From contig JAHDEC010000015.1 of the NCBI GenBank assembly GCA_020629035.1, positions 1-64,000 of the forward strand: a DNA stretch of 64,000 bases, read 5' to 3'. The notes below the pieces were generated by a model. That model saw only the letters and a list, made by a program, of their open reading frames with translations, was not told the DNA's origin and did not search any database. Numbering within the stretch: position 1 is the stretch's first letter; every line of letters begins with the position of its first letter. A program made the position numbers and the translations under genes. Below are positions 3,686 to 7,049 of the stretch, in pieces. This stretch comes from Saprospiraceae bacterium. GTDB taxonomy: Bacteria > Bacteroidota > Bacteroidia > Chitinophagales > Saprospiraceae.

Positions 3686-3848
3686 ATTGATTTATTTTAT
3701 TTCCCTTTGATTAGTAAAGCCATAATACCAGTTGAAATTAAGATGTTAAAGAAACAACTTAACTTAGCCAAACAGTCAACAACTAACATTAATGAAGAGT
3801 TGTTAGAAGGTATGTACATGATTAGACTTCGATTAGATAATAATGAAA
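3686..3848 (+). pseudogene. Left fragment of a decayed T9SS sorting-domain gene
   Basis: The frame from 3686 to the insertion point has no stop. It reads PVEIKMLKKQL, then TTNINEELLEGMYMIRL and DNNE, the usual end of a type A T9SS sorting domain (basic strand, EGMYxIRL strand). Upstream the frame is closed by a stop and the NPxxG strand is missing, so the gene had already decayed or has internal deletions. The frame is cut by the IS1595-family element at 3849. The missing last codons lie on the other side at 7050-7081. Confidence 0.65.
3841..3848. repeat. Left target-site duplication TAATGAAA
   Basis: This 8-bp sequence directly abuts the left inverted repeat and is repeated exactly at 7042-7049 next to the right one. 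Eight base pairs is the size known for IS1595-family insertion. Confidence 0.9.
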
Positions 3849-3873
3849 GGTAACTATATACAACTTTACACTA
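3849..3873 (+). repeat. Left terminal inverted repeat (IRL)
   Basis: The sequence is GGTAACTATATAC, three unmatched bases, then TTTACACTA. It matches the reverse complement of 7017-7041 at 22 of 25 positions. Confidence 0.92.
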
Positions 3874-4039
3874 TTAAAAGTAATGCTTATAACTCTATCT
3901 AAAATACCCCTTAGAAGTCTAACTTTTTAACCTATTGACTTTGTCTATTAGTCTATGCATCTTAAAGTATGGCTAAAACAGTATATTTAATAGCGCCTTA
4001 AAGTCGAACTATATACTTTACTTTAATGTTATTAAGTTG

Positions 4040-4047
4040 TATATTTG
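4040..4047 (+). promoter_or_regulatory. Candidate -7 element (TATATTTG) for the passenger genes
   Basis: TATATTTG fits the Bacteroidota TAnnTTTG consensus and lies 24 bases before the ATG at 4072. The -33 region has only a weak TTTA-like match. The rest of 3874-4071 is AT-rich with no other recognisable element. Confidence 0.4.
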
Positions 4048-4071
4048 TTATCGACAACAATGTATTGTATT

Positions 4072-4215
4072 ATGAAAACTCAAGTAAACATAGCAAGCAA
4101 CTCGCCTGCATCTAAGAAGATTCTTGAGATGAAGGAAAGAAAAGACAAACTAATATCTCTAATTAAAAGTGGAGAATATAGTAAACTTAAATCTAGCTCT
4201 AAAAGGCTTAATTAA
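4072..4215 (+). CDS. Small basic protein (47 aa), IS passenger, possible antidote-like partner
   Basis: ATG to TAA, 47 residues, Lys-rich and predicted helical (SPASKKILEMKERKDKL, then LIKSGEYSKL). It starts 24 bases after a good -7 element and ends 6 bases before the next gene, so the two are probably co-transcribed. A short charged helical protein ahead of a globular protein is the layout of many toxin-antitoxin-like pairs, but I recognise no family motif. Function is unknown. Confidence 0.55.
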   Translation: MKTQVNIASNSPASKKILEMKERKDKLISLIKSGEYSKLKSSSKRLN

Positions 4216-4221
4216 ATAGTA

Positions 4222-4737
4222 TTGCCTACCTACAATACCGAAAGGTATCAAAAATCAAAAGACGAATACTTCGTAGAGTTTACTACAAAGCTTGATATTG
4301 TATATACAATAGTTTTTAGAGATTCTTCAGAATATCTAGCTAATGAAGAAACTCATCCGATTTATGAAGTTGTTTTTCAGTCTTCAAACAATAAGAAACC
4401 TCATAAAAAAGATACTTCTGTAATGAAAACCATTGAACAAGAAATAGATTGGTTTTCTAAATTCAAAAAGGCAGTAGTGGTTTGTGTTTGCGATAACAAA
4501 GATTATCCTGCTTGCTGTAGGCATAGACTATTCTCAAGATTCATTATAGATTCAGATGTTGAGGGCTATACAATTTTAGATATAACGGCTAAATACGAAA
4601 ATGACAATGATGACGAATTTATCTTTGTTTTTATCGAGCCAAGTATAGAGAGTAAAGCCCAATTGGTATTAGAATCATTAGATGAGCTCATACCAAATGT
4701 AGGTGGAGGCAAATCAGTAGAAAGTAAAACAATGTAA
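4222..4737 (+). CDS. Hypothetical protein, DUF6169-like (IS passenger)
   Basis: About 171 residues. The only start giving full length is TTG at 4222, 6 bases after the preceding stop; a later start is possible. The N-terminal half looks like alternating beta strands (FTTKLDIVYTIVF, then IYEVVFQS). A segment MKTIEQEIDWFSKF follows, then VVVCVCDNKDY and CRHRLFSRFI, and an acidic C-terminus. The CDNxD...R..LF arrangement resembles what I recall of DUF6169 proteins, which are of unknown function; this is a tentative match. Its place inside the element, upstream of the transposase, makes it a passenger gene. Confidence 0.6.
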   Translation: MPTYNTERYQKSKDEYFVEFTTKLDIVYTIVFRDSSEYLANEETHPIYEVVFQSSNNKKPHKKDTSVMKTIEQEIDWFSKFKKAVVVCVCDNKDYPACCRHRLFSRFIIDSDVEGYTILDITAKYENDNDDEFIFVFIEPSIESKAQLVLESLDELIPNVGGGKSVESKTM

Positions 4738-4751
4738 TAATTAGCATTTAA

Positions 4752-4801
4752 TTACACCATGTTTTTGTTTTAGTGTAAAATACTTCTTATATTTGAAGTA
4801 T
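4752..4801 (+). promoter_or_regulatory. Transposase promoter with inverted repeats over the start codon
   Basis: TTTG (4764-4767), 20 bases, then TATATTTG (4788-4795) fits the Bacteroidota promoter consensus, ending only 4 bases before the transposase ATG at 4800. That suggests a leaderless or very short-leader transcript. Two inverted repeats overlap it: TTACAC/GTGTAA (4752-4757 and 4773-4778) and ATACTTC/GAAGTAT (4780-4786 and 4795-4801); the second covers the ATG. TAGTGTAAA at 4771-4779 is identical to the inner block of the terminal repeats. Confidence 0.5.
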
Positions 4802-5723
4802 GATAGATACACATAAATTCAATTCACTTTTAGATGTTATCAATACATTTTCTGATGAGCAGACTTGCATTGATCACTTAACACAATTAAGATGGAATGG
4901 AAACATAGTATCTCCATTTGACCCAACGTCTAAAGTGTATGTGTGTAAAGGCAATAAATACAAGTGTAAGAACACGGGAAAGTATTTTAATGTGAGAACT
5001 CAAACCTTGTTTGATAACACTAAGATTAAACTACAAAAGTGGTTTTTAGCTATATATTTAGTTACTTCACATAAAAAAGGAATCTCATCGATTCAGCTAG
5101 GTAAGGATATTGGAGTTACTCAAAAAAGTGCTTGGTTTATGCTACAAAGAATTAGAGCTTGTTTTGGATTAGATAATAATTCAAACGATTTAAGCAACGA
5201 AGTTGAGATAGATGAGACTTATGTAGGTGGCAAGAATAAAAACCGTCACAACACAAAGAAAGTAGCTAATTCACAAGGTCGCTCAATTAAAGCTAAGACG
5301 CCAGTTTTAGGAATGATTGAAAGAAGTGGAAAATTAGTAGCCAAGAAAGTAGTAGATACTAAAGCAGGAACTATAACTCCAATCATTGAAAATACAGTAT
5401 CAAAAAATGCAGTAGTTTATACTGATGAGTGGAGAGGATATTCTAAGGTAAAGAGGCTATTCAAAAGCGGAACGGTTCATCATGGTATTGGCGAATATGT
5501 AAATGGTAAAATCCACACTAATACTATTGAGGGTTTTTGGTCATTATTCAAAAGAAGTGTAATCGGAATATACCACTATGTTTCTCCAAAGCATTTACAA
5601 AAATATGTTGACGAATCGGTTTATAGATACAATACTAGAGATATGAACGAAGCTGAAAGAATGAACTTCTTATTTTGTAACACACAAGTTAGAACAACTT
5701 ACAAATCATTAATAAATGGGTAA
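4800..5723 (+). CDS. IS1595-family transposase (ISXO2-like DDE domain)
   Basis: The protein has 307 residues. The N-terminal ~75 form a zinc-ribbon-like module (YVCKGNKYKCKNTGKYF) with part of the usual Cys pattern. A helix-turn-helix follows (ISSIQLGKDIGVTQKSAW), then the ISXO2-like catalytic domain. Likely acidic residues are in EIDETYVGG near residue 140, YTDEWRGY near 205 and the NTIEGFWSLFKR block near 245, where this family has an Asn or Glu region followed by a Lys/Arg-rich helix. Length and motif order match full-size transposases, with no frameshift. It catalyses cut-and-paste or copy-type movement of the element at its inverted repeats. Its last 8 bases overlap the P63C gene, so the two are probably translationally coupled. 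Confidence 0.92.
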   Translation: MIDTHKFNSLLDVINTFSDEQTCIDHLTQLRWNGNIVSPFDPTSKVYVCKGNKYKCKNTGKYFNVRTQTLFDNTKIKLQKWFLAIYLVTSHKKGISSIQLGKDIGVTQKSAWFMLQRIRACFGLDNNSNDLSNEVEIDETYVGGKNKNRHNTKKVANSQGRSIKAKTPVLGMIERSGKLVAKKVVDTKAGTITPIIENTVSKNAVVYTDEWRGYSKVKRLFKSGTVHHGIGEYVNGKIHTNTIEGFWSLFKRSVIGIYHYVSPKHLQKYVDESVYRYNTRDMNEAERMNFLFCNTQVRTTYKSLING

Positions 5724-6717
5724 ATTAAAAGCAACTCACCAAGGAGAATTGGATTTAAATGGATTCAATGTTTCGTGTGCCGTACTTGAAGATGGAACTA
5801 GAGTTTTAGTTAATAGAAGTCTTGCAACTGCTTTAGGTATCAAAGGCAGCGGGGCTTATTGGCAAAAGAAAAAAGAAGGAAAAGGCGCTTTACTTCCTGA
5901 ATATGTTTCTGCAAACTACCTAAAGCCCTTTATGTCTAATGAATTACATGCAAAACTAACAAAACCAATAGGTTATGAAAGTACAAAAGGAGTCGAAACT
6001 GAGGGTGTACAAGCTGATTTACTTGCTGACATATGTGATATTTTCGTCAAAGCAGGGGAAAAAGGCGCTTTAAAAAATAATCAACATATTTCAGAGAATG
6101 CGTATCAAATGATACTTGCTTTCGCAAAGGTAGGTATCACTGCTCTTGTCGATGAAGTAACTGGATATCAGTATGACCGCGAGAAAGATGAATTACAGAA
6201 AATACTAAAAGCATATATAAGCGAAGAACTCCTGCCTTGGCAGAAAAGATTCCCTGACGAATTTTATGTTGAAATTTTCAGATTAAACAAATGGGATTTT
6301 ACGGTTAATGGCATTAAGAAAAGACCCGGTGTTGTTGGCAGGTGGACGAATACACTCATATATGACCAACTCCCTAAAGGAGTAAAAGATGAATTGAGAA
6401 AAAACACACCTAAGACTAAATCTGGGAAATTAGCTGCACAAATGCATCGAAGCTTAACTTTTGATGTAGGACATCCGCATTTATCTGCTCAGATTAATCA
6501 AATACTAACGATTTTTAGACTTTCAGACACAATGGAAGAAATGTGGTATAATTTTAAAAAGATGAACAGCAGAAAGAATGGAATTACGCAATTAGAATTT
6601 AAGTTTGACGAAAATGGCGTAACTATACCAATAGACCCACCAATAGAAGAAAAACCACTTTCTGACTTTGACAACAAACTGACTAAAGCATTAAACTACA
6701 ATCCAAAAGAAAAATAA
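5716..6717 (+). CDS. P63C-domain protein (IS passenger)
   Basis: The protein has 333 residues. The C-terminal part, from about residue 155, carries the P63C-domain features: PWQKRFPDEFYVEIFRLN, KKRPGVVGRWTN, YDQLPKGVKDEL and FDVGHPHL. The N-terminal part has a short basic beta region (ELDLNGFNVSCAVLEDGTRV) like that in many P63C proteins. P63C proteins occur in phages and mobile elements and their molecular role is not established; DNA binding or regulation is often guessed. The start overlaps the transposase stop by 8 bases, so this gene is part of the element and not of the host. It is in frame throughout. Confidence 0.85.
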   Translation: MGKLKATHQGELDLNGFNVSCAVLEDGTRVLVNRSLATALGIKGSGAYWQKKKEGKGALLPEYVSANYLKPFMSNELHAKLTKPIGYESTKGVETEGVQADLLADICDIFVKAGEKGALKNNQHISENAYQMILAFAKVGITALVDEVTGYQYDREKDELQKILKAYISEELLPWQKRFPDEFYVEIFRLNKWDFTVNGIKKRPGVVGRWTNTLIYDQLPKGVKDELRKNTPKTKSGKLAAQMHRSLTFDVGHPHLSAQINQILTIFRLSDTMEEMWYNFKKMNSRKNGITQLEFKFDENGVTIPIDPPIEEKPLSDFDNKLTKALNYNPKEK

Positions 6718-6733
6718 TAAACTGTTTGAAAAC

Positions 6734-6919
6734 AACACCTCGCGAAACTAGAGTGGCAGCTAAAGGGATGCTAACTGCGGTCTTAGCTTGGTGTTGACCG
6801 CTTATTTTCTCAATGTTTAACATTATGAAGATGGCTAAAACAGCGAGAGGTAAAAAGATTGTTTGCGTTAAGTCTCATACCAGAAATGGTAGAAGGATAA
6901 AACGTCATAAGCGGTCAAC
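6734..6919 (+). other. Inverted-repeat-rich, possibly structured RNA region
   Basis: CAACACC (6734-6740) pairs with GGTGTTG (6790-6796), and AGCTAA (6759-6764) can pair with TTAGCT (6783-6788) inside it. Overlapping this, a perfect 13-bp inverted repeat, GTTGACCGCTTAT (6793-6805) and ATAAGCGGTCAAC (6907-6919), flanks most of the 34-residue gene. The two pairings share bases 6793-6796 and would compete, as in a regulatory leader. No known RNA family is recognised. Confidence 0.4.
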
Positions 6920-6929
6920 TCCTAACTAA
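6825..6929 (+). CDS. 34-residue very basic protein with HTRxGxxIKxH motif (IS passenger)
   Basis: ATG at 6825 to TAA at 6927-6929. About 40% of residues are Lys, Arg or His, and the core KSHTRNGRRIKRHKR resembles the short basic HTRxGxxVxxHxR motif often found in small phage and mobile-element proteins. A second ATG at 6831 is also possible. It lies 12 bases before a strong terminator, inside a 13-bp inverted repeat, and inside the IS boundaries. A nucleic-acid-binding role is inference. Confidence 0.55.
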   Translation: MKMAKTARGKKIVCVKSHTRNGRRIKRHKRSTPN

Positions 6930-6941
6930 TTAGGTTCTCGG

Positions 6942-6965
6942 GGCAGCGTTCAAGCGCTGCCTTTT
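6942..6965 (+). terminator. Rho-independent terminator inside the IS
   Basis: GGCAGCG (6942-6948) and CGCTGCC (6955-6961) form a perfect 7-bp stem with a 6-base loop followed by TTTT. It lies after the last passenger gene and before the right inverted repeat, so it should limit read-through into the flanking T9SS gene. Confidence 0.75.
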
Positions 6966-7016
6966 CATTTCAAAAATACGTCTATTTTCTAAGGAGTTCA
7001 ATTTGTTATTTTTATC

Positions 7017-7041
7017 TAGTGTAAACAAGTATATAGTTACC
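7017..7041 (-). repeat. Right terminal inverted repeat (IRR)
   Basis: TAGTGTAAA (7017-7025), three unmatched bases, then GTATATAGTTACC (7029-7041). It is the reverse complement of the left end at 22 of 25 positions. Confidence 0.92.
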
Positions 7042-7049
7042 TAATGAAA
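7042..7049. repeat. Right target-site duplication TAATGAAA
   Basis: Exact copy of 3841-3848, directly abutting the right inverted repeat. Confidence 0.9.

Follow-up and report, generated by a model that had tools for sequence, protein, structure and literature searches.

A conserved peptide tag on the protein encoded beside an IS1595-family transposase of a Saprospiraceae bacterium

Insertion sequences (IS) are usually seen as one-gene machines, any extra genes being regarded as cargo. The IS1595 family includes members with passenger genes, the 'transporter ISs' (Siguier et al. 2009 as cited in PMC3129680), and the accessible part of PMC3129680 describes these genes as unrelated to transposition. 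The window analyzed here, a stretch of 64,000 nucleotides from a Saprospiraceae bacterium, carries an element of this family in which a second gene abuts that of the transposase. Is this gene cargo, or is it a working part of the transposon?

Boundaries and gene content of the element

The element and its flanking duplications contain the following features (positions are those of the window).

3841 to 3848, no strand: left copy of the 8-bp target duplication TAATGAAA, single copy in empty sites
3849 to 3873, plus strand: left terminal inverted repeat, 25 bp, with similar ends in related loci
4007 to 4044, no strand: subterminal repeats like the element ends (12-nt and 23-nt matches)
4072 to 4215, plus strand: 47-aa open reading frame (ORF), first upstream cassette gene, counted from its first ATG
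4222 to 4737, plus strand: 171-aa ORF, second upstream cassette gene, TTG start, weakly DUF6169-like
4800 to 5723, plus strand: IS1595-family DDE transposase, 307 aa (PF12762, NF033547)
5716 to 6717, plus strand: P63C-domain accessory protein, 333 aa, 8-nt overlap with the transposase
6661 to 6708, plus strand: C-terminal tag SDFDNKLTKALNYNPK of the P63C protein (HMM 28.6 bits, the window itself being a seed)
6825 to 6929, plus strand: 34-aa basic ORF within a 23-bp inverted repeat, outside the element core
6940 to 6963, plus strand: terminator-like hairpin
7017 to 7041, minus strand: right terminal inverted repeat, 25 bp, pairing with 3849 to 3873
7042 to 7049, no strand: right copy of the target duplication TAATGAAA, the same 8 bp as the left copy

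The terminal inverted repeats begin with GG and are identical at 22 of 25 positions, and among the GG...CC end pairs searched for around the transposase theirs scored 33 and the runner-up 23. Two empty sites, one in a paralogue of the same genome and the other in a congener, have the joined flanks uninterrupted and hold TAATGAAA once each (with 1 mismatch at one site). The element was inserted at one TAATGAAA. It is present as a single copy in the source genome, which is 96% complete, and target-site duplications (TSD) of 8/8 with similar ends occur in 51 of 79 related loci. Inverted repeats, duplication, empty sites and related loci thus support a complete IS1595-family element with exact ends. 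An earlier note had described these repeats, the perfect duplication and a complete element, and had proposed a search for empty-site alleles. The boundaries proved correct to the base, the search was positive, and the full transposase, the overlapping P63C gene, the two upstream genes, the 34-residue basic ORF and the terminator that it listed all lie within the element.

The transposase matches the ISXO2-like DDE domain PF12762 (E 9.6e-44, 149.5 bits, cut-off 27) and NF033547 (E 1.6e-61, 207.9 bits, cut-off 75), and the element resembles the IS1595 family in this domain, in its GG-starting repeats, in its 8-bp duplication and in its extra genes. Residues D138, D209, N241 and E244 are invariant in an alignment of 32 transposases and K251 is conserved in at least 90% of them; we take these to be the acidic catalytic residues and the following N/E...K region. 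The match to the N-terminal zinc ribbon PF12760 is weak (E 0.045, 14.2 bits, cut-off 25.4). Neither the transposase nor the P63C protein has a sequence match in the PDB.

The 171-aa ORF falls under the cut-off of 27 for DUF6169 (PF19666; E 0.0016, 19 bits). Weak relatives of it were found in 8 of 246 other genomes and were directly preceded by a small ORF in all 7 loci inspected (of 9), a likeness that is positional. At the right end, the region 6718 to 7016 folds with a z of -3.3, and Rfam returned a single match, far under the gathering score. Structured RNA as a core part of the right end was ruled out, since blastn against the related loci found nothing beyond the terminal ~40 bp and in one compact element (L006) the stretch following the P63C gene is 46 nt long.

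Partner proteins and their tag

The accessory protein matches P63C (PF10546; E 5.5e-30, 104.3 bits, cut-off 26.1). Its N-terminal part shows likeness of modest Z to DNA-binding folds of the KilA-N/APSES/Dachshund type: the DdrC N-domain 8u1j (Z 5.6, rmsd 4.1, 95 aligned), Dachshund 1l8r (Z 5.4, rmsd 3.7, 84 aligned), SKI-like 3eq5 (Z 5.4, rmsd 3.3, 81 aligned), granulovirus Orf22 4ye7 (Z 5.0, rmsd 4.1, 94 aligned) and Mbp1 1bm8 (Z 3.2, rmsd 4.1, 88 aligned), families missing from this comparison carrying no evidential weight. These fold matches are modest, a point against the main reading, and residues 180 to 291 match an unrelated fold with a higher score (Z 6.2). Foldseek gave no match to the protein at E <= 0.001, PADLOC one weak match, and the Ant PHROG a weak one (E 6e-4); PHROG 2384 covers only residues 4 to 299.

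Related elements also have an accessory gene after that of the transposase. In 80 related loci this gene encodes a P63C, KilA-N, RhuM or Bro-N protein or a short ORF (families named by Pfam on cluster representatives), and blastp detects no similarity between the partner clusters. Of the 76 loci with a downstream ORF, 36 have its start at -4 or -1 counted from where the transposase match ends. A tag of ~16 residues (LSDFNKKLKKGLNYNPK or a variant), usually C-terminal, is present in 75 of 78 testable loci, 54 of them by HMM above 20 bits and 21 by weaker, mostly eye-judged matches; L005 and L042, at contig ends, fall outside this set, and L082 was left as unclear. The tag is missing from L059 and L081; the latter has a TSD of 8/8, so the tag is not indispensable everywhere, a point against the main reading.

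The tag HMM, built from 49 seeds, gave 56 matches above 20 bits in six frames of the 80 loci and the window (1.15 M residues). Fifty-five of these lie downstream of the transposase on the same strand; the other, in L030, lies upstream in a 114-aa remnant of a RhuM tail. Six of the tag loci recovered by the HMM were non-seeds. Some ORFs are hardly longer than the tag (39 aa in L304, 48 aa in L066 and 49 aa in L071), and in L008 and L032 the tag is N-terminal. Because its synonymous codons vary freely, it is as a peptide that the tag is conserved. A constraint at the DNA level, such as a terminator or binding site, was rejected on the grounds of this synonymous change, the N-terminal positions and the variable distance to the right end. 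Elements L067 (RhuM) and L070 (KilA-N) share 89% DNA identity until 11 nt past the transposase and only the right inverted repeat beyond that point, and both are tagged. The related loci show that the accessory body is exchangeable and the ~16-residue tag retained.

Association of the tag with the transposase

In viral contigs, P63C, KilA-N and RhuM loci without a transposase carry the tag in 1 case of 231. At 18 bits, viral P63C loci were tagged in 5 of 7 cases with a transposase versus 0 of 73 without, and KilA-N loci in 2 of 2 versus 0 of 78. Among RhuM loci without a transposase the count was 1 of 80; an orphan tagged RhuM with no transposase in its locus (L467) speaks against the main reading. 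Thirty genomic RhuM loci (of 56 matches) had neither transposase nor main-type tag. Bodies of the same families are thus shown to be nearly always untagged without such a transposase, and these controls rule out the tag as an ordinary tail of P63C, KilA-N and RhuM proteins. In a class sample of 247 genomes, the tag exceeded 20 bits at 5 places, including the element's own, of which 4 adjoin a transposase. The fifth (L087) and another locus (L091, 22 bits on rescoring) have no transposase in their 3-kb loci, and their E-values of 0.0013 and 0.0076 per genome, multiplied by 247 genomes, fit chance.

Other observations count against the main reading. One P63C gene beside a broken transposase has no tag, the same holds for some remoter elements whose ends are good (40 of 97 transposase rows were examined with flanks), and 2 of 4 plasmid elements inspected lack it, one being 52% identical in transposase. 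There are also hints of such a module outside Bacteroidota. In two of these four plasmid regions, from Methylocystis and Entomospira, 60-aa and 68-aa ORFs that are absent from the incomplete gene table abut the transposase (SFGEAMTRFVAVKPKE; NMLGALRKTLKYNPDRKK), and N-terminal FxEALxRF-like motifs occur on other proteins encoded behind distant transposases of viral contigs. In a cross-phylum PSSM test of 54 dereplicated distant viral-contig transposases, 50 of which had an adjacent ORF, the adjacent ORFs outscored 1120 control ORFs (Mann-Whitney p 3e-14). This signal is only suggestive, since just 6 of 54 surpass the 99th percentile of the controls and, where there were several candidate ORFs, the highest-scoring one was used.

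Tags were assigned by us from motifs to three classes (NP, PP and GKP). On the transposase tree (87 sequences, 68 rows counted), tag type requires 3 changes, versus a mean of 16.8 and a minimum of 14 in 300 shuffles, and partner family requires 29 (shuffle mean 33.5, minimum 27). We left L008, L051, L042 and L082 out of this tree, together with L016 and L049 for their stops, and L061 out of the body trees. On the P63C body tree (29 rows) tag type looks random, with 8 changes (300 shuffles: mean 8.4, minimum 6), and on the transposase tree the same 29 P63C elements require 3 (shuffle mean 8.5, minimum 5). These reconstructions show tag type to follow the transposase lineage and not the attached P63C body. 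For the KilA-N and RhuM bodies the contrast between the trees is slight (2 changes versus 1 in each family), which counts against the main reading. Two mixed transposase/P63C alignments with a window read-through were set aside because their P63C identities were implausibly low.

Tag type is partly associated with host order, 41 of 42 Flavobacteriales having one type (a point against the main reading). Hosts do not account for it fully, since types differ within Saprospiraceae (2 NP and 2 PP) and Mucilaginibacter (1 NP and 2 GKP); Chitinophagaceae have 1 NP and 3 PP.

Possible roles of the tagged protein

We consider it fairly probable that the locus is a mobile IS1595-family transposon that combines a DDE transposase with a tagged accessory protein as its two functional components, the latter aiding transposition. 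The accessory protein would be made from the start that overlaps the transposase gene. Its tag, predicted to be an amphipathic helix with a proline/lysine end, would dock on the transposase or the transposase-DNA complex, and its body (P63C in this element and KilA-N, RhuM, Bro-N or HTH-like in others) would supply DNA binding that may help in assembling, steering or regulating transposition. The tag would be retained or re-acquired when bodies are replaced. The evidence suggests that the tag belongs to the backbone and cooperates with the transposase, probably by docking a DNA-binding protein, a contact that we infer. An AlphaFold model of the L304 transposase-tag read-through chain has a well-folded transposase, tag block means of 72 and 53 and no confident placement of the tag on the transposase, which counts against this reading. 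The earlier term 'passenger genes' is apt for the two genes upstream (47 aa and 171 aa), the second of which has weak relatives elsewhere in genomes. For the P63C gene it is misleading: its tag is common to dissimilar partners in sister elements and follows the transposase, so that at least this segment seems to belong to the transposition module.

In phages, proteins of the KilA-N, Bro-N, RhuM and Ant-like kinds act as regulators, and the accessory protein might instead be a repressor or inhibitor that keeps copy number down, its body binding element DNA and its tag holding on to the transposase. The weak Ant match, the single copy in the genome and the subterminal repeats, as candidate binding sites, agree with such a role, which we nevertheless judge unlikely because bodies are swapped while ends and transposase stay alike, a poor fit to sequence-specific autoregulation. 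It is also improbable that the tag recruits a host factor needed for transposition (a chaperone, nucleoid or replication protein) and not the transposase; portability to either protein end, the AlphaFold result and the Flavobacteriales pattern would suit this explanation, and the three changes along the transposase lineage and the mixed types within Saprospiraceae, Mucilaginibacter and Chitinophagaceae speak against it. Very improbable is that the downstream proteins are ordinary passengers whose tail is a functionless remnant of a small accessory ORF left by chance fusions, as the near-tag-length ORFs and frequent body exchange might suggest, given that a relic would decay and that nearly all testable loci conserve this tail as protein, with a type that follows the transposase.

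Phage antirepressor-type proteins (KilA-N, Bro-N, RhuM, P63C) have shuffled domains, and the accessory proteins resemble them in belonging to the same families and in exchanging DNA-binding modules beside a constant part; they differ in that viral copies without a transposase are nearly always untagged. TnsD/TniQ, TnsE and MuB are accessory target-selection or regulatory subunits of transposons. A docking accessory protein would resemble them as an adaptor linking DNA to the transposase; here, unlike there, what stays constant is a peptide of ~16 residues, attached to a body that varies by element. MTnSag1 and tISCpe8, in the portion of PMC5704250 available, also combine an IS1595-type transposase with other genes and, unlike the present element, are mobilizable elements of Streptococcus and Clostridium. 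In contrast to the passengers in the accessible part of PMC3129680, the abutting gene here has a conserved tag that evolves together with the transposase.

More tentatively, and with some doubt, we propose that, in several phyla, transposons of the IS1595 type rely on a very small peptide module encoded directly behind the transposase, and that cargo genes become indispensable by fusing to this module N- or C-terminally; if true, so-called passengers would be locked-in tethering subunits. A portable conserved tag that tracks the transposase points to an unrecognised second component of a widespread IS family and provides an annotation handle for small ORFs adjoining transposases. Two questions thereby become testable: for what reason KilA-N, Bro-N, RhuM and P63C proteins keep turning up on mobile DNA, and in what way small transposons acquire and keep cargo.

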